From: Planctomycetota bacterium
GTDB taxonomy: Bacteria > Planctomycetota > Phycisphaerae > Phycisphaerales > SM1A02
Assembly (NCBI GenBank): GCA_009926625.1
Contig: RFON01000002.1
Span: 62,001-126,000, forward strand
Reading direction: 5' to 3'
DNA length: 64,000 nt
In this document: in pieces, positions 4,946 to 17,928 of the stretch
Layout of the letters: each line of letters starts with the position of its first letter
How positions within the stretch are numbered: position 1 is the stretch's first letter
The notes under the pieces: generated by a model
Seen by the model: the letters and a program-made list of their open reading frames with translations, nothing else
What the model was told of the DNA's origin: nothing
Database searches by the model: none
Made by a program: the position numbers and the translations under genes

Positions 4946-4998
4946 AGTGGATTTGAGGTTGAATGATAGCGAAAATGCTGACCCTCGGCACGGGTGAC

Positions 4999-6033
4999 AT
5001 GCGGCGCAGTCGATTCGTGGAGCGGGGCGATCGGCAGTCGTCCACTCGGTGGATCCTGTTCACAATCGGTGTAGCCATCGTGATGTCCGTGGGTGCGTGC
5101 ATTTCGAAGCCCGTTCAGATTCGGGTCATGCGTGCCGACACGGGTTCGCCGATCGAGGGCGCGGAAATCCGACAGCACGGCGCGCGTTTCTTGCGCTTCC
5201 TGCCGCGCCCGAATGCGAAGCCCAGCGTGACGGGTGCCGATGGAATGGCATCGCTCGTTCTCGATGCACGCGGCACCAGTCTCGCGGTGCTTTGCCAAGG
5301 CTTTGTCCCCGTTCAAGTGAGCATCGTGCCGGAGCCCCGAGGGTGCGCCGAGCCATCGAAGCCAACGGCGCTCGAAGTGACCGTGCCGGACGACCTGTGC
5401 GTTCCCTTCGAATCGCTCGCGGACCGAGCGCGCTTGGATGTGATGCTCCTGCCGCTGCGAGCTTCGCCGCTCCGGGTGTGTGTCCGTGACGAACATGGCG
5501 AGTCGATGGCGGGGGCCATGGTGGTCGTCGAGTGCTCGCTGTTCCTGCCCTCCGATGGTGCGGAGGCAGCCTGGGGGCTGCCCGCGGCGCAGCGGCTGAC
5601 TGTCGGCAGCGATGGGTGCGTTCAGGTCCAGCGGTTCCATCCGCTCCGCGCCTATGCCTACGCGCGAATGGCGGGCTTTGCGCCGGCGCGAATTCGCATC
5701 GACCGAGAGCCCGACGGAGGAACTGCAACCCTCGAGATGCGCCGCTTGCAATGGAAGAAGAGCACGCTCCGCGTCGTGGACGCAAGGACCGACGCGCCGA
5801 TCGCCGGAGCACAAGTGCAGTTCGGCAAGGAACTCGATGGTGTCCCGCGCGATCCGAACGGCTGGGTTGTGGCGTGTGATGCGCAGGGGATCACGCCGCC
5901 CGTCGATCTTCCGAATCTCGACCAGCTCGTGTTGACCGTTTCAGCCAAGGGATATCGCTCGGCGCGATGTGTGATGCAGTGGGCGAGCATCCGTTCCGGC
6001 CGGCCAACCGAACTCGTGCTCGAGCGTCGGTGA
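4999..6033 (+). CDS. Lipoprotein with carboxypeptidase-regulatory-like repeats
   Basis: About 344 residues, with a basic n-region, a hydrophobic stretch (WILFTIGVAIVMSVGAC) and a likely lipidated Cys. Three beta-sandwich repeats follow, each starting with a variant of 'V.D..TG.PI.GA.V', for example MRADTGSPIEGAEI, VRDEHGESMAGAMV and VDARTDAPIAGAQV. This is the carboxypeptidase regulatory-like fold, common in planctomycete surface proteins. No catalytic domain is present, so it is probably structural or binding. Start codons at 4963 and 4975 are also possible; I chose 4999 for signal-peptide length. It diverges from tRNA-Gln, whose gene would overlap its promoter. Confidence 0.65.
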   Translation: MRRSRFVERGDRQSSTRWILFTIGVAIVMSVGACISKPVQIRVMRADTGSPIEGAEIRQHGARFLRFLPRPNAKPSVTGADGMASLVLDARGTSLAVLCQGFVPVQVSIVPEPRGCAEPSKPTALEVTVPDDLCVPFESLADRARLDVMLLPLRASPLRVCVRDEHGESMAGAMVVVECSLFLPSDGAEAAWGLPAAQRLTVGSDGCVQVQRFHPLRAYAYARMAGFAPARIRIDREPDGGTATLEMRRLQWKKSTLRVVDARTDAPIAGAQVQFGKELDGVPRDPNGWVVACDAQGITPPVDLPNLDQLVLTVSAKGYRSARCVMQWASIRSGRPTELVLERR

Positions 6034-6069
6034 GTGTGCGTCTGCACTGCCAATCGCTAGCCTCCGCGC

Positions 6070-7386
6070 ATGCATGCCGTGCGGGCAAATCACTGGTTGA
6101 TTCTCGCTGGGCTTGTCATGGGTGCAGCATGCGGGGCTGTCGCCCACCGCGTGGTCGACCGCGTGCCCGAGTGGCAGCGCACGCTTGACTTCATCAACAC
6201 CTCGATTCTGAATCCGATCGGGCAGATCTTCCTGCGCCTGCTCTTTCTTGTGGTGGTGCCCTTGGTGTTCGCATCGCTCGCCGCTGGAGTCGCCCGATTG
6301 GGCGACCCTGGCAGGCTTGGACGGGTGGCGGGACGGGCGCTGGTGCTGTTTGCGATCACCTCCACGACGGCAACCATGATCGGCTTGTTCGCGATGAACA
6401 TCCTCCAGCCCGGCGTCGGCTTCGATCCGATCATTCGGGGCGAGCTGATGGAGGCATTCGGTGCCGAAGCCGTGCGCATCGAGGAGGGCGGTTCACTTGG
6501 GGGCGATCGGGCGTTGCCGGTGGTCATGCAGGTCATCGATGCCACACTGCCGCGGAACATCCTCGGCGCAGTCGTGCAGATGCAGATGCTGCCCCTGATC
6601 GCGTTCTCGTTGCTGCTGGGCGTTGCGCTCGGGGTGCAGCCTTCGGAACGCCGCCTCCGTGCGGTCGAGTTCTTTGACATCATCGGTGATGCCATGGTGT
6701 TCATCGTGTCAGTCGCCATGCGCCTCGCGCCGATCGCAGTGTTCTGCCTGATCTTTGTGGTGGTCGCCCGCTTCGGCGGTGAGCTGTTGTGGAAGTTGGC
6801 TCAGTATGTGGCGGTCGTTCTCGTCTGCTACGCGATCGTGATTCTGCTGCTGTACCCGCTGCTGCTGACCGTGCTGGCTCGTCGCAATCCGTGGCATGTC
6901 CTGCGCGCGTGCGTTCCCGTCATGGTCACTGCATTCTCCACCTCATCGAGCAATGCCACGCTTCCGACGACCATGCAGTTTTCGCAGCGGGACCTTGGCG
7001 TGAGGCGAGAAGTTTCGGGGTTCGTTCTTCCTCTCGGCGCAACGATCAACATGAATGGCACGGCACTCTTTGAAGGCTGCGCCGTTCTCTTCATCGCACA
7101 GGTGTTTGGGATCAACCTGTCGCTCTCCGATCAGATTCTCGTCCTCGTGCTGTGCGTGATCAGTTCGGTCGGTGTGGCAGGAGTTCCCGGCGGTTCGTTG
7201 CCGCTGCTGATGGCGGTCATGGCGCAGGTGGGTGTGCCGCCGACCGGCATTGCGCTCATCCTTGGGGTGGATCGTCTGCTTGACATGGGGCGGACCGCCG
7301 TCAATGTGATGGGCGATGTTGTCGCCGCCGTGTGCGTCGAGGAGTCCATGCGTCGGAGCGACCAAAGCATCACGACCTCTGCCTAG
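6070..7386 (+). CDS. Dicarboxylate/amino acid:cation symporter (DAACS family)
   Basis: A 438-residue polytopic inner-membrane protein of the DctA/GltP class, which import C4-dicarboxylates or glutamate/aspartate with Na+ or H+. Seen: TM1 (HWLILAGLVMGAACGA), the NPIGQIFLRLLFLVVVPLVFASL helix, the serine-rich HP1 hairpin (FSTSSSNATLPTT), the unwound TM7 motif NMNGTALFE and the HP2 loop GVAGVPGGSLPLL, then DRLLDMGRTAVNVMGD. The usual NMDGT is NMNGT here, an Asp to Asn change at the signature that may alter ion or substrate use. A TAGCCT hexamer lies 6 bases before the ATG, with no Shine-Dalgarno sequence. The substrate cannot be settled from sequence. Confidence 0.88.
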   Translation: MHAVRANHWLILAGLVMGAACGAVAHRVVDRVPEWQRTLDFINTSILNPIGQIFLRLLFLVVVPLVFASLAAGVARLGDPGRLGRVAGRALVLFAITSTTATMIGLFAMNILQPGVGFDPIIRGELMEAFGAEAVRIEEGGSLGGDRALPVVMQVIDATLPRNILGAVVQMQMLPLIAFSLLLGVALGVQPSERRLRAVEFFDIIGDAMVFIVSVAMRLAPIAVFCLIFVVVARFGGELLWKLAQYVAVVLVCYAIVILLLYPLLLTVLARRNPWHVLRACVPVMVTAFSTSSSNATLPTTMQFSQRDLGVRREVSGFVLPLGATINMNGTALFEGCAVLFIAQVFGINLSLSDQILVLVLCVISSVGVAGVPGGSLPLLMAVMAQVGVPPTGIALILGVDRLLDMGRTAVNVMGDVVAAVCVEESMRRSDQSITTSA

Positions 7387-7390
7387 ACTC

Positions 7391-7822
7391 ATGGACCGCA
7401 TGCCGCCCATGAACAAGCGACCACTCGGATCGGAAGCCGTCACGGATGGCATTCGCGTGCGCGTGGAGCCCGCGTTTCTCGATTCGCACTCCGACATCGA
7501 GCGGGGCAATTTCACATTTGCCTACAAGATTCACCTCACCAACGAGGGCACGATGGGGGCGCGCCTGCTCGGTCGGTACTGGCGCATCGTGGATGCCGAT
7601 GGGCATGAAAGTGTCGTGGAGGGACCAGGAGTCGTCGGACAGCATCCGCATCTTGAGCCAGGGCAGACCTTTGAGTATTCGAGCTTTTGCCCGCTCAAGA
7701 CATCGTGGGGAACGATGGAGGGGCACTTCATTTTCGAGCGGGCAGATGGCGAGACATTCCGCGCCACGGTGGACCGCTTCTATCTTGCCTGTCCAGAGGC
7801 TCGAGCGGCAAGCCGCTCGTAG
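7391..7822 (+). CDS. apaG: ApaG domain protein
   Basis: About 143 residues. The body (VRVEPAFL, then FAYKIHLTNEGTMGARLLGRYWRIVDADG, GVVGQHPHLEPGQTFEYSSFCPLKTSWGTMEGHF) is a textbook ApaG/fibronectin-III-like beta sandwich. ApaG is a small cytosolic protein of uncertain role, often linked to ApaH and to phosphate or nucleotide binding. Here it follows the symporter by 4 bases and no apaH is near. ATG codons at 7391, 7400 and 7409 are all in frame; a TAGACT hexamer at 7384-7389 would suit the second. Confidence 0.9.
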   Translation: MDRMPPMNKRPLGSEAVTDGIRVRVEPAFLDSHSDIERGNFTFAYKIHLTNEGTMGARLLGRYWRIVDADGHESVVEGPGVVGQHPHLEPGQTFEYSSFCPLKTSWGTMEGHFIFERADGETFRATVDRFYLACPEARAASRS

Positions 7823-7863
7823 TAGGCGAGCGGTGAAGCGCCGCGGCGATCCAAGCGCTCGCC
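7802..7863. terminator. Two GC-rich hairpins at the end of apaG
   Basis: CGAGCGGC and GCCGCTCG form a perfect 8-bp stem with a 2-base loop at 7802-7819, overlapping the last apaG codons. A second stem, GGCGAGCG/CGCTCGCC, spans 7825-7863. Neither has a T-run, so the terminator call is tentative. Confidence 0.35.
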
Positions 7864-7867
7864 TGAA

Positions 7868-7890
7868 GGGGCGCGAGTAGGCTGCGCCCC
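7868..7890 (+). promoter_or_regulatory. Hairpin abutting the start codon of the NHLM fusion protein
   Basis: GGGGCGC and GCGCCCC form a perfect 7-bp stem whose right arm ends directly before the ATG at 7891. The loop contains GAGTAGGCT, which includes the TAGGCT -10-like hexamer (7878-7883). If the RNA starts upstream the stem would mask the start codon; if the gene is leaderless the palindrome could be an operator. Confidence 0.4.
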
Positions 7891-8721
7891 ATGACAACAA
7901 CTTCGCAGGGCGAGAGCAAGTTGTTTCGCGAGCGAGCGATGCAAGCGGTGGGCGGTCGAAACCGACTCAACACGCTGAGCCCGGTTGTTTCGCCGAGGCT
8001 ATGGGTCTTTGCAGCGGCGCTCGGATTCCTCGTCGCTTCGGTGATCGCCTGGGGATTCCTCGGCGATGTGCCCGTTGCGGTCTTCGGTACGGGAGTGTTT
8101 CTCAAGGGGGAACGCATCACAGCGCTCGTCGCTCCTCTTGATGGGCAAGTTTCCGCGGTGCTGAAACAGGTCGGCGACGAAGTGAAGGCGGGCGAGCCGA
8201 TCGTTCGAGTGCGGAGTCAAGAAGCCCAAGGCGTCCAGGTCCTTGAGGGGGTGGTCACGGCCGCGGAGGCGGGTCGCGTGACTTCGCTGGGTGTTGTTCT
8301 CGGCGATGCCGTACGCGACGGTCAACATGTGTGCGCAGTGGTCGTTGGTCGAGAGCAGCTGCGCTGTGTCGCGTTTCTCCCGCTGGGGGATGCAAAGCTG
8401 ATCGAACCGCAGTTCGATGCGCTCCTGCATTTCGTGACGCGTACCGCAGGCACCGATGGCGAGGCTCGCGGCAAGGTGGTTGCGGTCGAGTCTTTCATGA
8501 CCACTGGCGAGCGCATTTTTCAACGCGTGCCGAACGCGGACTTTGTGCGAATGGTTCAGGAACGGTTCGGCACCGTGTGCGAGGTGGAGGTCGAGGTGCA
8601 GGAGTCGACGCTGTCTGATGCAGTCCGCACCGGCGTCCCCTGCGACATCGAGATCATCGTGGACCATGTACGCCCAGTGGAACTGGTGTTTCCGGGACTT
8701 CGATCCAAGTCGAAGCGATGA
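7891..8721 (+). CDS. NHLM-type bacteriocin system secretion (HlyD-like) protein
   Basis: A 276-residue membrane-fusion protein. After a short cytosolic start there is one membrane helix (LWVFAAALGFLVASVIAWGFLG, about residues 37-58), then a split lipoyl/barrel-sandwich domain with LVAPLDGQVSAVLKQVGDEVKAGEPIVRV. No long coiled-coil hairpin is present, and the length is short for HlyD, both typical of the NHLM (nitrile hydratase leader microcin) export subfamily. It should link the inner-membrane peptide exporters to the periplasm. Its stop overlaps the start of the next gene by 4 bases, so the three transport genes form one unit. Confidence 0.82.
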   Translation: MTTTSQGESKLFRERAMQAVGGRNRLNTLSPVVSPRLWVFAAALGFLVASVIAWGFLGDVPVAVFGTGVFLKGERITALVAPLDGQVSAVLKQVGDEVKAGEPIVRVRSQEAQGVQVLEGVVTAAEAGRVTSLGVVLGDAVRDGQHVCAVVVGREQLRCVAFLPLGDAKLIEPQFDALLHFVTRTAGTDGEARGKVVAVESFMTTGERIFQRVPNADFVRMVQERFGTVCEVEVEVQESTLSDAVRTGVPCDIEIIVDHVRPVELVFPGLRSKSKR

Positions 8722-10952
8722 GCGAGGCGAGCACAGAGCCCGAGTCCGAGGTGGAGCCCGAGGCACCGCCGCCTCAGCCGTCGCTGCCGGGAGGGCCGCC
8801 GCGCCGAGTTCGTTGCCCGACGGTGATGCAGGTCGTCGCGGCGGAATGCGGCGCCGCGAGCTTGTGCAGTGTGCTGGGCCATTTTCGGGCGTATCGACCG
8901 CTTGAAGAGGTTCGTGAAGCGGTCGGCGTCGACCGCGATGGATCGAACGCGCGCCGAATTGCGAGTGCGGCTCGGCACTTCGGGCTTGAGGTCGAGGGGA
9001 TCAAGTGCGAGGTCGACGGCTTCGATGATGTGAAGCTGCCCGCGATCCTCTTCTGGGGACTCAATCACTTCGTCGTGCTCGAGGGATGGAACGCGCGCGA
9101 GTTCCTCCTGATGGATCCGGCGACGGGTCGGCGTGCGGTCAGTCCGCAAGAGTTCGACGAGGAGTTCAGCGGCGTCGTGTTGAATGTGCAGCCGAGTGAG
9201 CAGTTCGTGCCATCGGGCGGACCGCCATCGGCGTTGAAGCTCGTGGTTGACTGGATGCGGGGTTCGGGTTCCGCCGTCTGGCTCAGCGTGCTCCTTGGAT
9301 TGCTGCTCGCGGTTCCGATGGTGACGGTTCCGGGCCTGGCAGCTGCGTTCATCGATCAGGTGCTGTCGGACCAGCGCGACGGATGGACCTTGTCGCTTGT
9401 CGGAGTCGCCGTGGGCGCGATGGTCGTGGAGGCGATCCTGCTGCTGCTTCAGCGCAACCTGCTCGCGCAAGTGGAACAGCAGCTCTCGCTCGAGCGCAGC
9501 GTGGACTTCCTGCGCCAGATCTTCCGCCTCCCGTCGACCTTCTTCGGACAGCGGTATCCAGGCGACATCGCCGAGCGCGTCACCGCGAATGATCAGGTGG
9601 CGTCGATGCTCGCCTCCCAGTTTGCCCCCGCGATCGTGCAGGTGCTGACGCTGATGGCATTCCTGATCGCGATTTCGCTGATCAGCACCACGATGGGGAT
9701 CATCGCGTTCTTCGCGGTTTCAGCGACGATCACGATCCTCGTTCTCGCCGCGCGCGCTCGCGTCGATCAAGCGACGGCGCTCTCGCAGCAGGAAGGCATG
9801 AAGCAGGGTGCCATCGTGGCGGGACTCATCACGCTCGAGTCGCTCAAGGCGGGAGGGCGTGAGTCGGACTTCTTTGCGCGCTCCATGGGTTTCACTGCGC
9901 GTGTCGCCTCGGCTCGGCAGCGCGCCGCACTGTTGTCGAACATGGTCAGCATCGTGCCGTCGTGGCTGCAGTCGGTGGTGGTCTCCGCCATCGTGCTTGG
10001 CGTCGGCGGGCTGCAGGTGATGGACGGGGAAATCTCCATCGGCACGCTGCTCGCGCTGCAGATCCTAGTGATGGGATTCATGTCTCCCGTGACGCAGTTG
10101 GCGGAGTTGCTGCGGGAAATCCAGACGGTGCGCGCCGATCTCGGCAGGCTCGACGACGTGATGTGCCATGCAACGGATCCGCTTGCGTCGGAACCGGATG
10201 TCGACCACACAGCGGACATCGAGTATGCCGCGGGGCAACTCGAACTGCGCAGCATCACCTTCGGCTACGGCCACGGGCAGGCACCGCTGCTGAAGGACTT
10301 CTCGCTGACGGTGCGACCAGGTGGCCGCGTGGCGATCGTCGGCGGAACGGGTTCTGGCAAGTCCACCGTTTCGCGACTGGCTGCCGGGCTCTTGGAACCG
10401 TGGGACGGCGAGGTTCTGCTCGACGGTTTCCCGCTTCGCAGTGTGCCGCGCCACATCCGTGCGGCGAGCCTTTCGACGGTCTTTCAGCGTCCGTCGTTCT
10501 TCGAGGGCTCGATTCGTGAGAACCTCTCCCTGTGGAATCCCGACATTCCCGATGCATGGCTGCTCGAGGCGCTCGACGATGCCCAGCTCACGGCGGTGAT
10601 CAATTCGCGCGGCGGTCTCGATCATCCAGTGGCCGAAGGCGCGTCCAACTTTTCTGGGGGTGAGGCGCAGCGGCTCGACATCGCCCGCGCGCTGTGTCGT
10701 CGACCCGCTGTGGTCATCCTCGACGAGGCAACCAGCGCACTTGACCCGACCACGGAGCTCGCCATCGATGCAGCGCTGAGGCGCCGCGGAACGACCTGCC
10801 TGGTGGTGGCACATCGGCTCAGCACCATTCGAGATGCGGATGAAATCGTCGTGATGGATCAAGGCGAAGTCGTCGAACGCGGGACGCACGAGGACTTGCT
10901 GGCTCGGCGCGGGCGCTACCACGAGTTGATCACGGGAGAGTCGCACGCATGA
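8718..10952 (+). CDS. NHLM-type C39 peptidase / ABC exporter
   Basis: A 744-residue fusion. Residues 1-30 are Pro/Glu-rich and probably disordered. A C39 cysteine peptidase follows, with Cys44 in AAECGAASLC, His117 in WGLNHFVVLEGW and Asp133 in LMDPATG; it should cut after a double glycine. Next come six membrane helices (about 180-470) and an ABC domain with Walker A GGTGSGKST, signature NFSGGEAQR, Walker B VVILDEATSALD and the H-loop AHRLST. All catalytic residues are intact, so it is probably an active peptide exporter that removes leader peptides. It overlaps both neighbours by 4 bases. Its likely cargo is the double-glycine peptide at 13781-13930. Confidence 0.92.
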   Translation: MSEASTEPESEVEPEAPPPQPSLPGGPPRRVRCPTVMQVVAAECGAASLCSVLGHFRAYRPLEEVREAVGVDRDGSNARRIASAARHFGLEVEGIKCEVDGFDDVKLPAILFWGLNHFVVLEGWNAREFLLMDPATGRRAVSPQEFDEEFSGVVLNVQPSEQFVPSGGPPSALKLVVDWMRGSGSAVWLSVLLGLLLAVPMVTVPGLAAAFIDQVLSDQRDGWTLSLVGVAVGAMVVEAILLLLQRNLLAQVEQQLSLERSVDFLRQIFRLPSTFFGQRYPGDIAERVTANDQVASMLASQFAPAIVQVLTLMAFLIAISLISTTMGIIAFFAVSATITILVLAARARVDQATALSQQEGMKQGAIVAGLITLESLKAGGRESDFFARSMGFTARVASARQRAALLSNMVSIVPSWLQSVVVSAIVLGVGGLQVMDGEISIGTLLALQILVMGFMSPVTQLAELLREIQTVRADLGRLDDVMCHATDPLASEPDVDHTADIEYAAGQLELRSITFGYGHGQAPLLKDFSLTVRPGGRVAIVGGTGSGKSTVSRLAAGLLEPWDGEVLLDGFPLRSVPRHIRAASLSTVFQRPSFFEGSIRENLSLWNPDIPDAWLLEALDDAQLTAVINSRGGLDHPVAEGASNFSGGEAQRLDIARALCRRPAVVILDEATSALDPTTELAIDAALRRRGTTCLVVAHRLSTIRDADEIVVMDQGEVVERGTHEDLLARRGRYHELITGESHA

Positions 10953-13642
10953 GCATTGCCGCGACGGACTACGCGGCGGTGTTCGCCGCGCTCGGTGGGG
11001 AACGGCATGCTGCGGATCGACGCAGTGGCGTTCCCATGCGTGACGACTCCATCGTGGTCCTGCTCTCTGGCTCCGTGCAGGTGTTCGCGTATCGCAAGGG
11101 ACATCGGCGTCGCCACCGCATCGGTGAACTGCTGCCGGGTTCCGCGGTGCAAGGGCCTGTGTTTCCTGTCGACCTGATTCCCGAGTCGACCGCGGAGTTC
11201 CTGCGATTGCCCGCCGGCGCGCTCGCGGCTGCCGCATCGCATGGCCCCGCGGCGGAGGCGCTTCGGCAAGGGTTCGCGAAGACGCTCGCGGGGTGTGGTG
11301 GAACGCTGAGTCCGAAGGTGTCGCTCGCCGATGCGGCGAAGCGCGTGACCGAGGAGCTTGAGCGCCGCGGGCAATCGACCTCGGAAGCGGCGTATGCGCG
11401 TCACATGCGTCGATTGGTCGATGTCGCAAGCGGATCGTTGGCGTTCGAGCAGCGCATCCAATCGCTCGTGACGACTCGGACGGGTCCACGCTGGATGTAC
11501 CAGCCAGATTCGCGCCTTCCTCCTGTGGTGAGGGCGTGCATTCAGCTGGCGGTCATGATGGGTTACGAGCCCGACGCCGTTCCGACTCGTATCCCGCGAG
11601 ATGTGACGAGAAAGACCGAGCAGACCTTCGCACATGTTGCGGGACTGGGGATCCGAACGGTCTTTCTCGACCCTGGTTGGTGGTTGCAGGACATCGGTTC
11701 CGTCTTGGCGTTCCGCGCCGAAGATCAGGCACCCGTCGCGGTGTTGGCAACGCCGCAGGGGCTGAAGGCGTTCGTTCACTCCTCAGGCGCGATCGCAGGT
11801 CCGTTCACGGTGGACGAGGCGTTTGCATCCACGCTCGCCAAGTCTGCATCGCAGTTCCACGCAACGCTCGGACCACAGCGCATCAGCGTCTGGAAGTTCC
11901 TGCGCTTCATCGCGAAGGGATCGGAACACGATTTCCTGCTCGCGTTCATCATGGCCGGACTCGGTGTCCTCGTGAGCCTGGCGATTCCCGTTGGAACGGG
12001 TCTGCTCATCTCCCGCGTGATCCCAAGTGAGAATCACTGGGGGCTGCTGTTCATCGGCATGGTGCTGCTCGCGACGACGGTCACCTCCGCCGCCTGCTCG
12101 TTTGTCGTGTCGAATCTCCTCCTCCGCGCCGAGACACGCATGGACGGACGCGCGCTTGGTGGCATTCTCGACCGTTGCCTCCGGATGCCCGTCGAGGCGT
12201 TCCGCACGTTCACCAGCGGAGATCTCGCCGACCGAATCCTGTCGGTCGGCAACATGCAGCAACTGCTTTCGGGCTCAGCCGTGGCGGCGATCATGGCAGG
12301 CGTGTTCTCGGTGGTGTACCTCTCGGTGATGGCCGCGGTCGATTCGCAGGCGGCGGTCGTCGGGTTCGCGTTCATGGTGATCGCGGTGCTCGTCAGCGTG
12401 CTCATCAGCCTGAAGCGTGCGCAGCTCTCGATGCAATCGATGGAGTCGCAGGGCGGACTCTCGACGGTGATGCTGCAGTACATCGGTGGAATCGACGCGC
12501 TGCGGGGGGCGGCATCGGACCAGTTCGCCGTACTCCGATGGCTCGAGAAGTTCCGTGTCGTTCGGACATTCTCCATGCGCATCCACCGCCTCGACCGCTT
12601 TTACGAGGTGTTTTCCGCAGGGTTCCCAGTGCTGTGCACGACGCTCTTCTGGATCATCTTCTCGCAGCGTTTCGCGTCGCCAGACACATTCGAGAGCTCG
12701 CCCATCGATGCCCCGGTTCGTGTGGCGCAGTTCGTGATGTTCACTGCTGCATTCAGTGCTGCACTGTTTTCCGTGCTCGATGTCGGCACGCGCTTGGGGG
12801 ATCTCGCGCTCCTGCAGTCCACATTCCGCCGCATCAGGCCGATTCTCGATGCCGAGGTGGAGTCGTCAGGCGAGCGCGAAGTGCCCGGTGTGATCTCCGG
12901 CCAAATCACGATTGCGGATGTGCGGTTCGCGTACCCGGGAAGCGCGAACGAGATCCTGTCTGGTGTCAGCATCCGCATCGAAGCGGGGGAGAGTGTTGCC
13001 GTCGTCGGTCCGAGTGGAAGCGGGAAGTCGACGCTCCTGCAACTCGTGCTCGGGCTTCGCAAGCCAACAAGCGGCAATGTGCTGCTCGACGGAAAGGACC
13101 TTGATCGCCTCGACCTCGTTTCGGTTCGGCGGCAGATTGGTGCAGTGGTGCAGAACACGCGCATCGTGCCAGGCGCCATCCTCGAGAACATCGTCGGAAG
13201 CACGCTGCATGGCGTCGACGACGCACAGCGCGCGCTCGAGGCGGCGGGGTTTGCGGACGAAGTCGAGCGGATGCCGATGGGTGTTCACACCTATGTGACC
13301 GACCAAACGCTCTCTGGTGGACAGTTGCAGAAGTTGCTCATTGCGCGCGCACTGGTGGCGCGTCCCAAGATTCTCGTCTTTGACGAGGCTACGAGTGCGC
13401 TCGATGAGATCTCGCAGGCGCAGGTGGTGGCGAGCCTCGAGGGACTTCGCGCGACCCGCATCATCGTCGCGCATCGCCTGAGCACGGTGCGATCGTGCGA
13501 TCGGATCTTCGTCATGGACGCGGGGCGCGTCGTCCAGGTGGGAACCTTTGACGATTTGGTGCGGGTGGAGGGACGCTTCCGCGAGATGGCGCGGCGACAG
13601 ATGCTCGATGTGCCCCCCGCGATTGGCCCAGCGATCCAATAG
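10949..13642 (+). CDS. NHLM-type second ABC transporter with N-terminal cNMP-like domain
   Basis: An 897-residue protein. The first 110 residues resemble a jelly-roll cyclic-nucleotide-like domain (DDSIVVLLSGSVQVFAYRKG, IGELLPGSAVQGPVF), and a degenerate substrate-binding region follows. The membrane domain starts near residue 325 and contains FLLAFIMAGLGVLVSLAIPVG. The ABC domain has GPSGSGKST, LSGGQLQKLLIARAL, ILVFDEATSALDE and AHRLSTVRS. This matches the second, peptidase-free ABC protein of NHLM systems, which pairs with the C39 protein. Whether the N-domain binds a nucleotide is unknown; in the family it is thought to be regulatory. Confidence 0.88.
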   Translation: MSIAATDYAAVFAALGGERHAADRRSGVPMRDDSIVVLLSGSVQVFAYRKGHRRRHRIGELLPGSAVQGPVFPVDLIPESTAEFLRLPAGALAAAASHGPAAEALRQGFAKTLAGCGGTLSPKVSLADAAKRVTEELERRGQSTSEAAYARHMRRLVDVASGSLAFEQRIQSLVTTRTGPRWMYQPDSRLPPVVRACIQLAVMMGYEPDAVPTRIPRDVTRKTEQTFAHVAGLGIRTVFLDPGWWLQDIGSVLAFRAEDQAPVAVLATPQGLKAFVHSSGAIAGPFTVDEAFASTLAKSASQFHATLGPQRISVWKFLRFIAKGSEHDFLLAFIMAGLGVLVSLAIPVGTGLLISRVIPSENHWGLLFIGMVLLATTVTSAACSFVVSNLLLRAETRMDGRALGGILDRCLRMPVEAFRTFTSGDLADRILSVGNMQQLLSGSAVAAIMAGVFSVVYLSVMAAVDSQAAVVGFAFMVIAVLVSVLISLKRAQLSMQSMESQGGLSTVMLQYIGGIDALRGAASDQFAVLRWLEKFRVVRTFSMRIHRLDRFYEVFSAGFPVLCTTLFWIIFSQRFASPDTFESSPIDAPVRVAQFVMFTAAFSAALFSVLDVGTRLGDLALLQSTFRRIRPILDAEVESSGEREVPGVISGQITIADVRFAYPGSANEILSGVSIRIEAGESVAVVGPSGSGKSTLLQLVLGLRKPTSGNVLLDGKDLDRLDLVSVRRQIGAVVQNTRIVPGAILENIVGSTLHGVDDAQRALEAAGFADEVERMPMGVHTYVTDQTLSGGQLQKLLIARALVARPKILVFDEATSALDEISQAQVVASLEGLRATRIIVAHRLSTVRSCDRIFVMDAGRVVQVGTFDDLVRVEGRFREMARRQMLDVPPAIGPAIQ

Positions 13643-13780
13643 CGATCCAAGAGCCATCCGGTGAAGACCGATGTCGACCGATGAAAAAGCGATCGGCGGC
13701 CGTTCAGGAGCAGAGAACGGTCACCGACCGCGTGGTCATTCACCGAAGCCGGTCAGAAGCCGGTCGGAGACGGGCGCAGA

Positions 13781-13930
13781 TCAGCGCTTTGGAGTCCGCG
13801 CTTGTCGGGCGGCGGTCGAGTTGCGAGAGACGCGGCTGGCGCCGCCTCCACTCGCCTTCTCGAGATCAGCGTCCGAAAGCTTGGTGGACTTGGTCGTTGT
13901 CTTCGTCGAGTTCGCTGGCTTCGATGACAT
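13781..13930 (-). CDS. Double-glycine leader peptide precursor, probable NHLM cargo
   Basis: A 49-residue peptide. Residues 1-17 are rich in Ser, Thr and Lys; residues 18-29 read LSDADLEKASGG, which fits a C39 leader exactly (Leu -12, Asp -8, Leu -7, Ala -4, Gly -2, Gly -1). Cleavage there would free the 20-residue core GASRVSRNSTAARQARTPKR, with five Arg, one Lys, no acidic or aromatic residue and no Cys. A good AAGGGA Shine-Dalgarno lies 7 bases before the ATG. The gene faces the exporter operon, ending 138 bases from its last gene. I see no lanthionine, heterocycle or radical-SAM enzyme nearby, so the product may be exported unmodified. Function (bacteriocin, signal or surface peptide) is unknown. 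Confidence 0.75.
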   Translation of the reverse strand: MSSKPANSTKTTTKSTKLSDADLEKASGGGASRVSRNSTAARQARTPKR

Positions 13931-13960
13931 GATGTTTCCCTTCAAGAGCGTCGAGCGCAC

Positions 13961-14015
13961 TTGGCATACGCATCCAAGGCACTGAACGACCGAACCGTAC
14001 GATACAGTTGGCATA
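13961..14015. repeat. Paired TTGGCATA direct repeat between peptide gene and asd
   Basis: TTGGCATA occurs at 13961-13968 and 14008-14015, 47 bases apart, in the short divergent region. Read on the minus strand the match extends to TATGCCAAnTG. It could be a binding site for a regulator of the peptide gene. Confidence 0.4.
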
Positions 14016-14040
14016 TGGCAAGCAGATTTGAGGATTTCTG

Positions 14041-15084
14041 TTGAATCCCAAGGCGCTGCTTGGATCCGGTCCTTTTGCCGTTGTTGGGGCGACGGGCGCG
14101 GTCGGCTGCGAGTTCTTGAGGATTCTGCAGGAATCAGGGGGATCGCTCGATGGGCTGCGCCTCTTCGCAAGCCCCCGATCGTCCGGCAAGTCGGTGGGCA
14201 TCGGGGGGCGGGAGGTGGTGGTGGAGCCGCTGCACGATGGCTGCTTCCGTGGAACGCAAGTCGTGTTCTTCTCCGCCGGCAAGGGGATCTCGCGCGAATG
14301 GGCTCCGCGGGCTGTTCGCGAGGGAGCTTGGGCGATCGACAACTCAAGTGCGTTCCGAATGGATCCCCTCGTGCCGCTGGTGATCCCCGAGGTCAACGGC
14401 GCCGTGCTTGATCGGTGTCGTACGCCTTGCATTGTTGCCGTGCCGAACTGCTCGACCATCCTCGCACTCGTCGCGGTGACGCCACTGCACCGCGCGGCGC
14501 GCGTTCGGCGGATGGTGGTATCGACCTACCAAGCCGTCAGCGGCGCTGGCGCAGCGGCCATGCGCGAACTTGAACAGCAGGCGCGCGATTTCGCTGCGAG
14601 CAAGCCACTCGACATGAGCGTGTTTGGACGCCAGTGTCTCTTCAACTGCTTCTCGCACAACAGCGCCATCGGTGCGGATGGATACAACGAAGAGGAGGCG
14701 AAGCTGCTCCACGAGTCCCGTCGCATCTGGGACGATCCGCAGCTGCGTGTGACCGCCACCTGCGTGCGTGTCCCCGTGCTTCGCGCGCACTGCGAGTCGA
14801 TTGCGCTCGAGTTTGAACGACCCCTTGCCGAGGCGCATGCTCGCGCGCTGCTGGCGGACGCGCCAGGTGTTGAAGTGGTCGATGATCGGGACGGCAATTG
14901 CTTCCCCGAACCGCTTGCGGCCGCAGGGCGCGATCCCGTCCTTGTTGGGCGAATTCGTGCGGATTGGAGCTTGGATTCGGGGATGGGACTGCAACTGTTC
15001 GTAGCGGGTGATCAGATCCGCATCGGAGCGGCGCTGACCGGGTGGCGCATCGCCGAACGGCTTGCTCCAGTGATCTGCGGCTGA
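14041..15084 (+). CDS. asd: Aspartate-semialdehyde dehydrogenase
   Basis: A 347-residue enzyme that reduces aspartyl phosphate to aspartate semialdehyde for lysine/diaminopimelate, threonine and methionine synthesis. Seen: the NADP-binding loop VVGATGAVGCEFLRIL, VVFFSAGKG, the active-site Cys in IVAVPNCSTI, the segment STYQAVSGAGAAAM, and the C-terminal LQLFVAGDQIRIGAALTGWRIAE. The start is a TTG at 14041; GAGGA lies 7 bases upstream, and the nucleotide-binding motif begins 10 residues later, so this rare start is well supported. It diverges from the double-glycine peptide gene. Confidence 0.95.
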   Translation: MNPKALLGSGPFAVVGATGAVGCEFLRILQESGGSLDGLRLFASPRSSGKSVGIGGREVVVEPLHDGCFRGTQVVFFSAGKGISREWAPRAVREGAWAIDNSSAFRMDPLVPLVIPEVNGAVLDRCRTPCIVAVPNCSTILALVAVTPLHRAARVRRMVVSTYQAVSGAGAAAMRELEQQARDFAASKPLDMSVFGRQCLFNCFSHNSAIGADGYNEEEAKLLHESRRIWDDPQLRVTATCVRVPVLRAHCESIALEFERPLAEAHARALLADAPGVEVVDDRDGNCFPEPLAAAGRDPVLVGRIRADWSLDSGMGLQLFVAGDQIRIGAALTGWRIAERLAPVICG

Positions 15085-15097
15085 TGGCGAACGATCT

Positions 15098-15117
15098 CCC
15101 GCGACGGAAATCGCGGG
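15098..15117. terminator. Hairpin between convergent asd and trpC
   Basis: CCCGCGA and TCGCGGG form a perfect 7-bp stem with a 6-base loop, in the 43-base gap between two converging genes. There is no T-run; it may stop transcription from both sides. Confidence 0.5.
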
Positions 15118-15127
15118 CGCGCTGCGT

Positions 15128-15934
15128 TCACGCGGTCATGTCGCGAAGCGCCACCCCTGGGTCTGGTTGGCGCAGCAGGTGCTCGCCCACGAGCACGATG
15201 TGGATGCCGTGCTCGCGAAGTCGACGCAGGTCGTCCCCCGATGTGATGCCGGACTCGCTGACGAGCACGCGTGTGTCCTCGACCAACTCAGCAAGGCGGA
15301 AGGAGTGGTGGAGGTCCGTCTTCATCGTGCGGAGATTGCGGTTGTTGATGCCGAGCAACGAGTACCCCGCGTGGGGAAAGCCGACATGCTGCATCGCGCG
15401 GCAGAGGTTCTCCGCGTCATGCACTTCGAGCAGCGTGGTCATCCCGAGCTCAACGCTGAGGATCTGGTAGTCGATGATTTCGCTCTCCCGCAGCGCTTCG
15501 GCGATCAGCAGGATCGCATCGGCACCTGCGGCGCGCGACTCCCAGATCTGATAGGGATCGACGATGAAGTCCTTTCGCAGTACGGGCAGGGGGACCGCAT
15601 CTCGCACCGCATGGATGAACTCCAGCCGCCCGCCAAAGTCCACCTCGTCCGTGAGGCAAGAGATCGCAGCAGCGCCGGCAGCGTGATACTTTCGCGCGAT
15701 GGCGACGGGATCGAAGTCCTCCCGGATCAATCCAGCGCTGGGGCTGGAGCGCTTGATCTCCGCGATGACGCGCGTTCGCGAGGCCTTGCCCCGATCCACC
15801 ACCGCTTGGAAGAAGTTTCGCGGACGACCCAGTTCGGCAATCTGCTCGCGCAGTTGTTCGAGCGGCACGGTCGACTGCGCCGCCTTCACTTCGGCACGCT
15901 TCCGTCGCAGGATGCTCTTGAGCCTGTCGTTCAT
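15128..15934 (-). CDS. trpC: Indole-3-glycerol phosphate synthase
   Basis: A 268-residue TIM-barrel enzyme of tryptophan synthesis, converting CdRP to indole-3-glycerol phosphate. Seen: RLKSILRRKRAEVKAAQ at the N-terminus, VIAEIKRSSPSAGLI (catalytic Lys), LTDEVDFGGRLEFI, PVLRKDFIVDPYQIWESRAAGADAILLI, LLEVHDAENL, GINNRNLRTM and VSESGITS. All canonical motifs are present. It is a lone trp gene here. Its start at 15934 lies inside the possible 5' end of the divergent CPBP gene. Confidence 0.95.
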   Translation of the reverse strand: MNDRLKSILRRKRAEVKAAQSTVPLEQLREQIAELGRPRNFFQAVVDRGKASRTRVIAEIKRSSPSAGLIREDFDPVAIARKYHAAGAAAISCLTDEVDFGGRLEFIHAVRDAVPLPVLRKDFIVDPYQIWESRAAGADAILLIAEALRESEIIDYQILSVELGMTTLLEVHDAENLCRAMQHVGFPHAGYSLLGINNRNLRTMKTDLHHSFRLAELVEDTRVLVSESGITSGDDLRRLREHGIHIVLVGEHLLRQPDPGVALRDMTA

Positions 15935-16820
15935 CGTTGCGGTTTCGTGCGTGTGTGGAGAGGGTAGGGCGGAAAGCCTCGCCTCGTTGCCGGATGCACA
16001 GCAGGCATCGTGGCTGTGGGCAACCGTCATCATCGGCGCATTCGCTGCGGCGGCGATCATGGTCTCGGGCGTGTGGCGATCGACGCGCTTCGCGGAAGTG
16101 CGGTGGCCGTTCAGCGCAGTGGAGTCGTTGCTGTTGTTCCTGATGCTGCAGGTGCTCGGCGCCCTCGGCGCCATGATCGGCAGCCGTCTGGCACCGCCGC
16201 AGGGAGATGGTGCTGCGCCCACGCTCGACGGCGCGCTTTGGATGATCGGTGCGGCATCCCTGTTGCAGGTCTCGGCCCTCGTTGTTGTGCTGCTTCGCCG
16301 CCGCGAAGGCATGCACCCGCGATTGCACTTTCGCGTGGGCTGGACGCCTGCGCTGACCGGTGCGATTGCATTCGCTGCAGCGTGGTTCCCGCTGCAGGCA
16401 ATCGGCGCCGCCGTGGCGACCGTGCAAGTCGGACTCGGCGGTCCCGCGATCCCCAGTGAAGGGCACGCAACGCTGCAGCTTCTCGGCGAATCGCCTCTGG
16501 ATCTTCGGCAGTGGCTCATGATGGTTTGCGTCGTGCTCGTCGTGCCCGCGGTCGAGGAGGTCATGTTTCGCGGCGCACTGCTTGGTGCCCTGCGTCGCGC
16601 GGGGCTCTCGCCGTGGACGGCCATCGCGATTTCTGCATCGATCTTCGCGCTCATGCACATCCCTGCGCTCGTGGACGGCGCCGTCGCACCAGGCATCGCG
16701 ATGCTGTTGGCGCTGGGCATGCTGCTCGGCTGGTGTGCCGCACGCACGGGTTCGCTGGCCGCGCCGATCACGGCGCACGCACTCTTCAATGCGGTGAATC
16801 TCCTGCAGTCGACGCGGTGA
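15912..16820 (+). CDS. CPBP-family intramembrane metalloprotease
   Basis: About 302 residues with a signal-like N-terminus and six or more membrane helices. The three CPBP (Abi) motifs are present: VPAVEEVMFRGALLG (EExxxR), SIFALMHIPAL (FxxxH) and ITAHALFNAVN (HxxxN). The family includes the eukaryotic CAAX protease Rce1 and, in bacteria, bacteriocin-immunity proteins; the substrate here is unknown. The ATG at 15912 makes it overlap the divergent trpC by 23 bases; an in-frame GTG at 15951 would remove the overlap, so the start is uncertain. It is about 2 kb from the NHLM peptide gene, and a link is only speculation. Confidence 0.85.
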   Translation: MLLSLSFIVAVSCVCGEGRAESLASLPDAQQASWLWATVIIGAFAAAAIMVSGVWRSTRFAEVRWPFSAVESLLLFLMLQVLGALGAMIGSRLAPPQGDGAAPTLDGALWMIGAASLLQVSALVVVLLRRREGMHPRLHFRVGWTPALTGAIAFAAAWFPLQAIGAAVATVQVGLGGPAIPSEGHATLQLLGESPLDLRQWLMMVCVVLVVPAVEEVMFRGALLGALRRAGLSPWTAIAISASIFALMHIPALVDGAVAPGIAMLLALGMLLGWCAARTGSLAAPITAHALFNAVNLLQSTR

Positions 16821-16857
16821 ACGCGGCACGCGTTCGTGATCCGTAGCATCCCGCGCC

Positions 16858-17928
16858 ATGCAAGCAGCGAGTCCGAAGCCCCGCATCCTCACGGGCGACA
16901 CACCAACCGGAACGCTCCACCTCGGCCACTGGGTCGGCAGCGTGCGACGCCGCGTCGAACTGCAGTCGACGCACGAGTGCTACTTCCTGCTTGCGAACAT
17001 GCATGCCTTCACCACGCGTGCCGAACGGCCCGAGGAGATTCGCCGCGACACCATCGAGATCGTGCGCGACTATCTCGCCATGGGAATCGACCCGCGGCAG
17101 TCGGCGATCTTCCTGCAAAGCGAAGTGCCGGCCATCGCCGAACTCACCTTTCTGTTTGCGATGCTCATTCCCTTCAACCGCGTGATGCGCAATCCGACGC
17201 TGAAGGATGAGATCAAGGTCAAGAACCTCGGCGATGCGTATTCATTCGGGTTTCCGCTCTACGCCGTTGGTCAGACTGCCGACATCCTCGCGTTTCGCCC
17301 AGTCGGTGTGCCTGTCGGCGAAGATCAGGTGCCTCACCTCGAGATGACCCGCGAAGTGGCGCGGCGTTTCAATCAGGTGTTTTGCGGCGTTTCGGAGCAT
17401 GCCGAGGATGAAGAGCATGTCGCGCTCGGCGGCACATTCCCGATCCCGAAAGCCGATGTCGGTCCGGTCGGCAGGCTGATGGGCATCGATGGCGTCCAGA
17501 AGATGAGCAAGAGCCTCGGCAATGCCATCTTCATCGCCGATCCGCCGAAGGAGGTGCAGAAGAAGGTCGGCAAGATCTTCACGGGGCGCCAGAGCCCCAA
17601 CGATCCAGGCGATGTGACCAATGCGCTGTTCCAGTATGTGGAGGCGTTCATCCCCGATGCTGCACGCGTGGCGGAGTTGAAGGATCGCTACGCGCGCGGC
17701 GACAACATCGGCGATGGGCACATCAAACTCGAGGTGGGGGAGGCGCTGAACGCGCTGCTCGAGCCGATGCGTGAGCGACGAAGGCAGTTCGAGGGGAACG
17801 ATGATCTCATCATCGACATCCTGCGCGATGGGTCGCGGCGTGCGAACCGCGTCACCGAGGAGACGCTCGAACTCGTGAAGCAGGCGGCGCGACTGCACTT
17901 CTTCCCGCGTCGACTCGAGATCGATTGA
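16858..17928 (+). CDS. trpS: Tryptophanyl-tRNA synthetase
   Basis: A 356-residue class I synthetase. Seen: the HIGH-type motif TGTLHLGHWVGSV, the central VPVGEDQVPHLEMTREVARRFN, GTFPIPKADVGPVGRLMGIDGVQKMSKSLGN with the KMSKS loop, and a C-terminal helical anticodon-binding region. It charges tRNA-Trp. TAGCAT lies 8 bases before the ATG and no Shine-Dalgarno sequence is visible. Its 3' end overlaps the convergent recombinase gene by 77 bases. Confidence 0.95.
   Translation: MQAASPKPRILTGDTPTGTLHLGHWVGSVRRRVELQSTHECYFLLANMHAFTTRAERPEEIRRDTIEIVRDYLAMGIDPRQSAIFLQSEVPAIAELTFLFAMLIPFNRVMRNPTLKDEIKVKNLGDAYSFGFPLYAVGQTADILAFRPVGVPVGEDQVPHLEMTREVARRFNQVFCGVSEHAEDEEHVALGGTFPIPKADVGPVGRLMGIDGVQKMSKSLGNAIFIADPPKEVQKKVGKIFTGRQSPNDPGDVTNALFQYVEAFIPDAARVAELKDRYARGDNIGDGHIKLEVGEALNALLEPMRERRRQFEGNDDLIIDILRDGSRRANRVTEETLELVKQAARLHFFPRRLEID

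Follow-up and report, generated by a model that had tools for sequence, protein, structure and literature searches.

The stretch of DNA analysed here, referred to as the window, is 64,000 nt long and corresponds to bases 62001-126000 of contig RFON01000002.1, in a planctomycete genome of 2.58 Mb that is 91% complete. Between the flanking genes apaG and asd, it carries three plus-strand open reading frames (ORFs) with successive 4-base overlaps that code for a peptide exporter, followed 138 bases later by a convergent 49-codon ORF for a small peptide with a double-glycine (GG) leader (Table 1). A preliminary description of this DNA had reported three coupled exporter genes and a 49-residue peptide on the opposite strand, and the ORFs were present as it described them. 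The exporter and the peptide were found to be kept together in four genera of one planctomycete family, and the adaptor protein of the exporter lacks a hairpin block that should normally dock the outer-membrane duct TolC.

Table 1. Features of the exporter and peptide locus, in window coordinates
Feature	Position	Strand	Basis
Adaptor, periplasmic, HlyD/TransFuse-like, 276 residues, one transmembrane helix then nearly all beta	7891..8721	+	TIGR03794, alignment, AlphaFold2, Foldseek
ABC1, C39 peptidase/permease/ATPase, TransCleave-like, 744 residues	8718..10952	+	TIGR03796, Pfam C39, 6mpz alignment, motifs
ABC2, second ABC permease/ATPase, TransABC-like, 897 residues	10949..13642	+	TIGR03797, motifs; N-terminal domain from model and weak Foldseek matches
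Precursor peptide gene, 49 residues	13781..13930	-	Translation, 18/19 genus genomes, pN/pS
Leader, 29 residues, C-terminal end LSDADLEKASGG (L-12, L-7, A-4, G-2, G-1)	13844..13930	-	Alignments; 29 distinct peptides, four genera
Predicted mature core, 20 residues, GASRVSRNSTAARQARTPKR, 6 basic, 0 acidic, 0 Cys	13784..13843	-	Cleavage site inferred from GG motif
Promoter-like box TTGCCA..TATCGTA	13998..14021	-	Alignment of 18 upstream regions
apaG, flanking ORF, true start probably internal	7316..7822	+	PF04379, synteny
asd, aspartate-semialdehyde dehydrogenase, flanking	14041..15084	+	PF02774/PF01118, synteny

The three exporter proteins, namely the adaptor and the two ATP-binding cassette (ABC) proteins ABC1 and ABC2, had TIGR03794, TIGR03796 and TIGR03797 as their respective top NCBIfam models. 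All three are NHLM models, and the layout is also that of NHLM, with one C39-ABC protein and one C39-less ABC protein in a three-gene neighbourhood. The scores of 109, 811 and 643 bits all fell short of the curated cut-offs of 156, 853 and 709. The earlier label of an NHLM-type exporter therefore holds for the best models but not by cut-off, and we file the locus as an NHLM variant and not as an NHLM member. The C39 peptidase of ABC1, also claimed to be intact, is so. The Pfam domain scored 105.8 bits against a cut-off of 22, and the catalytic residues Q38, C44, H117 and D133 are all in place according to motif positions and the structure alignment. The domain aligned to 6mpz ('Double Glycine Motif Protease domain from AMS/PCAT Transporter'), which we take to be LahT, at E 3.7e-32. 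The ATPase of ABC1 retains Walker A (542), signature (645), Walker B (665) and H-loop (696), and ABC2 likewise keeps these four motifs. The N-terminus of ABC2 (window 10949-11899) was modelled as a beta-roll with a cyclic-nucleotide-binding-like fold, with Foldseek matches at E 3e-5 to 1e-3 and low template modelling (TM) scores, which suggests that this domain may place the pump under ligand control. We read the secondary structure of the model as continuing after the beta-roll into a C39-like alpha/beta region. BLASTP showed no similarity between this middle region and the ABC1 C39 domain.

Homologues of the peptide were found in 18 of the 19 genomes of the window's genus (g1), its own included, and the exporter in all 19. 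The sole genome without the peptide, G009, has a contig that stops inside ABC2 (L084/L111). Scanning contigs with an alignment of the peptides turned up 17 loci, and gene order and orientation were the same in all 17 peptide-bearing relatives as far as the contigs reach. Four genomes encode an identical peptide protein with 3-9 silent changes. Over the 18 copies, the ratio of nonsynonymous to synonymous polymorphism (pN/pS) was 0.22 in the core, 0.26 in the leader motif and 0.55 at the N-terminus. By these comparisons, the peptide gene is real and its core is under purifying selection. With the three closest of the 17 relatives set aside, the other 14 had identities of 69-79% in the peptide, 67-73% in ABC1, 56-59% in ABC2 and 30-38% in the adaptor, some of the contigs being partial. 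The 49-residue peptide had no Pfam or NCBIfam match, and a search with it of 42 other genomes gave a best match no better than E 0.0149, missing the peptides of G019 and G035. Upstream of the gene, the TTGCCA..TATCGTA box was strongly conserved across the genus, with one match in the window and none in 100 shuffles. A strict sigma-70 scan and a terminator scan found nothing. The box lies in the intergenic space shared by the peptide gene and the divergent asd, and could serve either of them. Another conserved block, TTC....GAAAT, was considered as a regulatory site of the peptide and was read instead as the ribosome-binding/start region of asd.

The pairing extends beyond the genus. By the criterion of an ABC2 match at E up to 1e-130, same-clade exporters were present in 37 of 181 genomes of the family, in four of its 45 genera (g1 19, g18 7, g2 1 and g43 10). 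A draw of 400 genomes from 163 genera across the order gave the exporter in 36, limited to the same four genera. In the ABC1 and ABC2 trees (40 and 43 rows), which were midpoint-rooted and drew long-branch warnings for L106, g2 and others, the four genera grouped together with 100/100 support. Nine other exporters of the family, from eight genomes, fell across the branch from this clade in both trees and are called the outgroup below. A convergent GG-leader peptide gene stood at the end of the operon in 36 of the 37 genomes (g1 18/19, g2 1/1, g18 7/7, g43 10/10), and peptide-type ORFs elsewhere in the 789 kb of fetched loci numbered five, compared with four in reversed sequence. The ORF criteria were fixed after the first peptides were known: the initial pattern caught all the g18 peptides and one of the ten in g43, the other nine g43 peptides came from a looser pattern, and the g2 peptide was picked out by reading ORFs. 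The nine outgroup exporters had no peptide-type ORF where their operons end, and none was found for G048 (L112), which matched by ABC1 only. One outgroup locus, L110, has a chance-like peptide match inside the operon, on a contig that reaches only about 320 bases past ABC2. In six of the ten g43 loci (L099, L126, L128, L129, L132 and L133), a TolC-type gene, detected with a query from L099, lies between ABC2 and the peptide gene. The flanking genes also vary, with asd in g1 and g2, and nothing found by an asd query in the fetched g18 and g43 stretches. Judged from this distribution, the exporter-peptide pair is older than the genus.

Leaders cut by C39 peptidases have hydrophobic residues at positions -12, -7 and -4 and GG or GA at -2/-1. 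The 29 distinct peptides fit this consensus, with L (28) or M (1) at -12 and the same at -7, A, V, I or M at -4, and GG (28) or GA (1) at the cleavage-site pair; position -13 is K or R. The predicted cores have 20 residues in g1, 23 in g18, 28-35 in g43 and 43 in g2, and each contains 6-10 K/R. Over the 29 distinct cores, 728 residues in all, there is no D or E, no C and a single aromatic residue. The cores consist of 45-65% S/T/A/G, with at most four I/L/M/V and one aromatic residue per core. For four representative cores, the chance of no acidic residue in their 117 positions was 2.7e-6, as calculated post hoc. The starts of the g2 peptide and some g43 peptides were picked by us.

A profile of the leader, searched at E up to 10, found a single site in the window's own genome and no second cargo. 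The proposal in the preliminary description that the cargo might be spread over the genome was therefore dropped for this genome, while its alternative of a minimal planctomycete system, with the peptide as probable cargo behind a short classical double-glycine leader, gained from the retention of both in 36 of 37 genomes. Two weak matches to the window peptide elsewhere in this genome were judged to be chance. The first (C53, E 0.016) is internal to a long protein with a frame of 482 codons. The second, on C16 (L003, 30784-33873, at 1501-1590; E 0.067), falls in a 98-codon frame with a loose L..ADL..A.GS and a Cys in its leader part, and the leader profile misses it. The NHLP leader model TIGR03793 had no match in the same genome and matched one of 19 in the genus (G015, on a different contig from the exporter). 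Among 121 genomes it matched nine, namely G015, five of the eight outgroup-exporter genomes and, weakly, three genomes of the family. The outgroup-exporter genomes had 18 matches in G024, 11 in G080, six in G075, three in G070 and one in G031, and none in G061, G062 and G071. In contrast to the single cargo here, G024 (same family, g7) combines its 18 NHLP-leader matches with two NHLM-type exporters. The outgroup contig L108 also carries an NHLP-leader peptide.

The peptide has an upstream region of its own on the opposite strand, and the 9% missing from the genome could hold a different cargo, so we considered that exporter and peptide might be unrelated neighbours. Adjacency in 36 of 37 genomes, in spite of the differing flanks and the TolC gene intervening in six g43 loci, speaks against this, as do the fit of the leader to the C39 motif and the single leader site in the genome. 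Because of the co-occurrence in four genera, this explanation is nearly refuted, and we regard the peptide with high confidence as the cargo of the exporter.

The preliminary description had also noted that no modifying enzyme was nearby, and none was found among the seven neighbours tested (4963-17928). Matches to the three enzyme classes modelled (YcaO, LanC-like and SPASM) were absent from the whole genome. Over the 19 genomes of the genus, YcaO was found once (in G015) and LanC-like and SPASM not at all, compared with 5, 1 and 10 in 14 control genomes. The cargo could still be a ribosomally synthesized and post-translationally modified peptide (RiPP), tailored in trans by an enzyme encoded outside the locus. 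It was the association with modified NHLP peptides that defined NHLM exporters (PMC2887384), the cores are rich in S/T/A/G, and a member of the genus, G015, does have a YcaO/NHLP-like cluster. These points are set against the enzyme counts above, the seven neighbours, and the composition of the 29 distinct cores, which offer no Cys for lanthionine and no Asp or Glu for graspetide bonds. We therefore consider a RiPP improbable and the peptide probably unmodified. The G015 cluster itself (L142, C26:5000-18000, 6445-9049) comprises a 752-residue YcaO fusion beside an NHLP-like peptide that ends in AFSGITCD and has no GG. The 13 kb fetched there showed no exporter in its long ORFs; the single exporter of G015 may serve both peptides, or the NHLP-like peptide may not be exported.

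The adaptor differs most from the expected form. In an alignment of 16 adaptors (five g1, two g18, one g2, three g43 and five outgroup), a block of 136 residues, predicted as a hairpin, separates the lipoyl domain into two halves in each of nine rows (one g2, three g43 and five outgroup), whereas the five rows of g1, the window's genus, and the two of g18 have 0-2 residues at this place. In g18 the lipoyl halves are gone too. The lengths agree with this: about 420 residues in g43 and g2 and 423-458 in the outgroup (plausible starts), compared with 276-291 in g1 (14 aligned) and 211 in g18. Quoted lengths omit ORFs that are over-extended at the start (L037, L039, L049, L111, L100, L133, L102, L109 and, slightly, L129), cut by contig ends (L034, L125 and L131) or missing (the g1/g18 loci L035, L036, L048, L120, L123 and L124), or use aligned starts. 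TIGR03794 scored above its cut-off, over almost the full length, on one adaptor each from g43 and g2 and on two from the outgroup; g43 retains a long, hairpinned adaptor. On g1 adaptors the same model matched in two pieces, the best being residues 24-111 of the window adaptor on profile positions 6-93 and residues 115-281 of L053 on positions 251-419, and on the g18 adaptor it matched at profile positions 287-419 only. The hairpin should normally dock TolC, and the adaptor of the genus has lost its outer-membrane arm. In the ABC1 tree, g18 groups with g2 (80/63) and not with g1; the ABC2 tree did not settle the placement of g18. Because g1 and g18 are not together in the ABC1 tree, the hairpin was likely lost twice.

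An AlphaFold2 model of the window adaptor, built from a 14-row alignment, shows one transmembrane helix followed mostly by strands, with a loop (109-118) at the hairpin position and no hairpin. The best of five models had a mean predicted local distance difference test (pLDDT) score of 73.7, the others 41-53, and a predicted TM (pTM) score of 0.51; residues 1-33 are unreliable. The eight best PDB matches of the model in Foldseek were all BesA chains (E 2.5e-10 to 2.2e-9, TM 0.41-0.46), followed by MacA at E 3.1e-8. With moderate confidence, the model points to a BesA-like adaptor with lipoyl and barrel domains and no alpha-hairpin. A gene for an outer-membrane duct was looked for on the contig of the window and not found. 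The exporter had been called complete, which holds for the three genes and the intact C39 domain, but not for the adaptor without its TolC-docking hairpin or for a duct on the contig.

Taken together, we favour, with some reservation, a system of NHLM descent in which one exporter is dedicated to one cationic, unmodified peptide. In the proposed mechanism, a separate promoter, facing against the exporter operon, would drive expression of the peptide. ABC1 would cut it behind the GG with its C39 domain, and the ABC1/ABC2 pair would then move the core of about 20 residues over the inner membrane. The core would be released into the periplasm, or exit only via a non-standard, BesA-like junction. 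Since the hairpin is missing, release into the periplasm seems the most likely of these outcomes, although we give periplasmic delivery in this genus slightly less than an even chance. In unmodified form, the core would work on the anionic envelope of the cell itself or serve as a signal, and would not be a diversifying bacteriocin. Such a role fits better because the unmodified cationic core is conserved by purifying selection, and we lean slightly toward an envelope or signalling function over killing. A narrower version is delivery within the envelope, by a pump whose ancestors secreted natural products and which was converted through deletion of the hairpin (possibly twice, in g1 and g18). 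It would process one conserved, unmodified, polycationic peptide and release it to the periplasm, there to organise the envelope of these lake planctomycetes, act as a structural counter-ion or carry an internal signal. This we put forward only tentatively.

Several points weigh against the periplasmic, one-peptide interpretation. A missing hairpin is no proof of periplasmic delivery: the hairpin-less BesA serves a tripartite pump that is reported to be functional (PMC3807786). OEP/TolC-family genes occur elsewhere in the same genome (15 domain matches on 8 contigs). Because BesABC is described as working without a hairpin and OEP genes exist elsewhere, secretion to the outside may still take place. 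The hairpinned adaptors of g43 and g2, together with the operon TolC of g43, suggest that the ancestral system secreted to the outside. The adaptor model is of only moderate confidence, and its BesA matches have TM scores below 0.5. Cores differ between the genera, the search with the window peptide missed those of G019 and G035, and it is position, leader and composition that speak for common descent of the peptides. Enzymes outside the modelled classes, for example glycosyltransferases, could modify the Ser/Thr-rich cores. Finally, cleavage, export, localisation and activity are predictions made from sequence.

Class II microcins of the colicin V type are secreted with a GG leader, a C39 exporter and an adaptor, and the locus shares this layout. 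A bacteriocin or microcin whose cationic core leaves by way of the adaptor and of a TolC from another locus, to kill related bacteria, would also accord with the OEP genes, the BesA precedent of a hairpin-less adaptor in a working pump, and the TolC gene within the operon in six of ten g43 genomes. Other features depart from class II microcins. The core has few hydrophobic residues (at most four I/L/M/V and one aromatic), and there is a second ABC protein. From apaG through the exporter and peptide genes to asd and trpC, the ORF coordinates leave spaces of 44-138 bases, which appear too short for a usual immunity gene. The core is conserved within the genus (pN/pS 0.22), unlike the NHLP cores, described as highly variable in the account of that family (PMC2887384). 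A bacteriocin is therefore unlikely. The same conservation of a short core, its single copy, the dedicated exporter and the conserved upstream box would suit an extracellular cell-cell signal, as known for GG peptides of other bacteria, with a receptor encoded elsewhere. No receptor or regulator was found among the seven window neighbours tested, and the loss of the hairpin makes external release less certain; we judge this explanation improbable, much as we do the RiPP.

The preferred system can be placed among known ones. The NHLM exporter TransFuse-TransCleave-TransABC was tied to NHLP cargo by Haft et al. 2010, who also describe it as more widespread than that cargo (PMC2887384). The window proteins share the three-gene layout and find their best NCBIfam models there, but differ in their scores below cut-off, the 29-residue non-NHLP leader, the lack of any modifying enzyme found and the hairpin-less adaptor. 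BesA, the adaptor of Borrelia BesABC, is reported as lacking the alpha-hairpin in a functional, tripartite pump (PMC3807786; PDB 4kks, 4kkt, 4kku). It shares lipoyl and barrel domains with the window adaptor at 12-14% identity. BesA serves an RND (resistance-nodulation-division) drug pump with its duct gene besC in the operon, whereas the window adaptor goes with an ABC exporter of peptides whose locus contains no duct gene. In Synechococcus elongatus, EbfG1-4 are small GG-motif proteins which, with the C39-type peptidase transporter PteB, are described in a non-antibiotic, biofilm role (PMC4997328). GG cargo and C39 transporter are shared, a likeness drawn from that description; there are four cargo proteins there and one here. 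HetC of Nostoc is a C39 ABC exporter discussed, from the lack of a nearby adaptor gene, as delivering its substrate, given as unknown, to the periplasm (PMC10986499). Compared with HetC, a cargo candidate is identified here, and the adaptor is present but shortened.

The kind of exporter is thus known, while the family of short cationic cargo peptides, the co-occurrence in four genera and the loss of the hairpin are new to us; a literature search found no paper on such a planctomycete system. Through this locus, a family of short cationic peptides without acidic residues or Cys is defined, served by a dedicated exporter of NHLM origin in four genera of one planctomycete family, and the locus provides one concrete non-NHLP cargo for an exporter that is wider-spread than NHLP. 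On homologous exporters with peptide cargo, the adaptors form a natural series, with the hairpin in g43 and g2, without it in g1 and still more reduced in g18, in which the role of the hairpin in peptide export is directly testable. If delivery does end in the periplasm, this would be a new use for such an exporter. As a lead, the genus may belong to the lake clade CL500-3/Nemodlikiaceae, presented among freshwater Phycisphaerae metagenome-assembled genomes in PMC6461901.

Downstream of asd, the long minus-strand ORF at window 15128-16849 over-extends trpC. On the plus strand, an Rce1-like CPBP protein is encoded at window 15699-16820, with a start that is probably located later.

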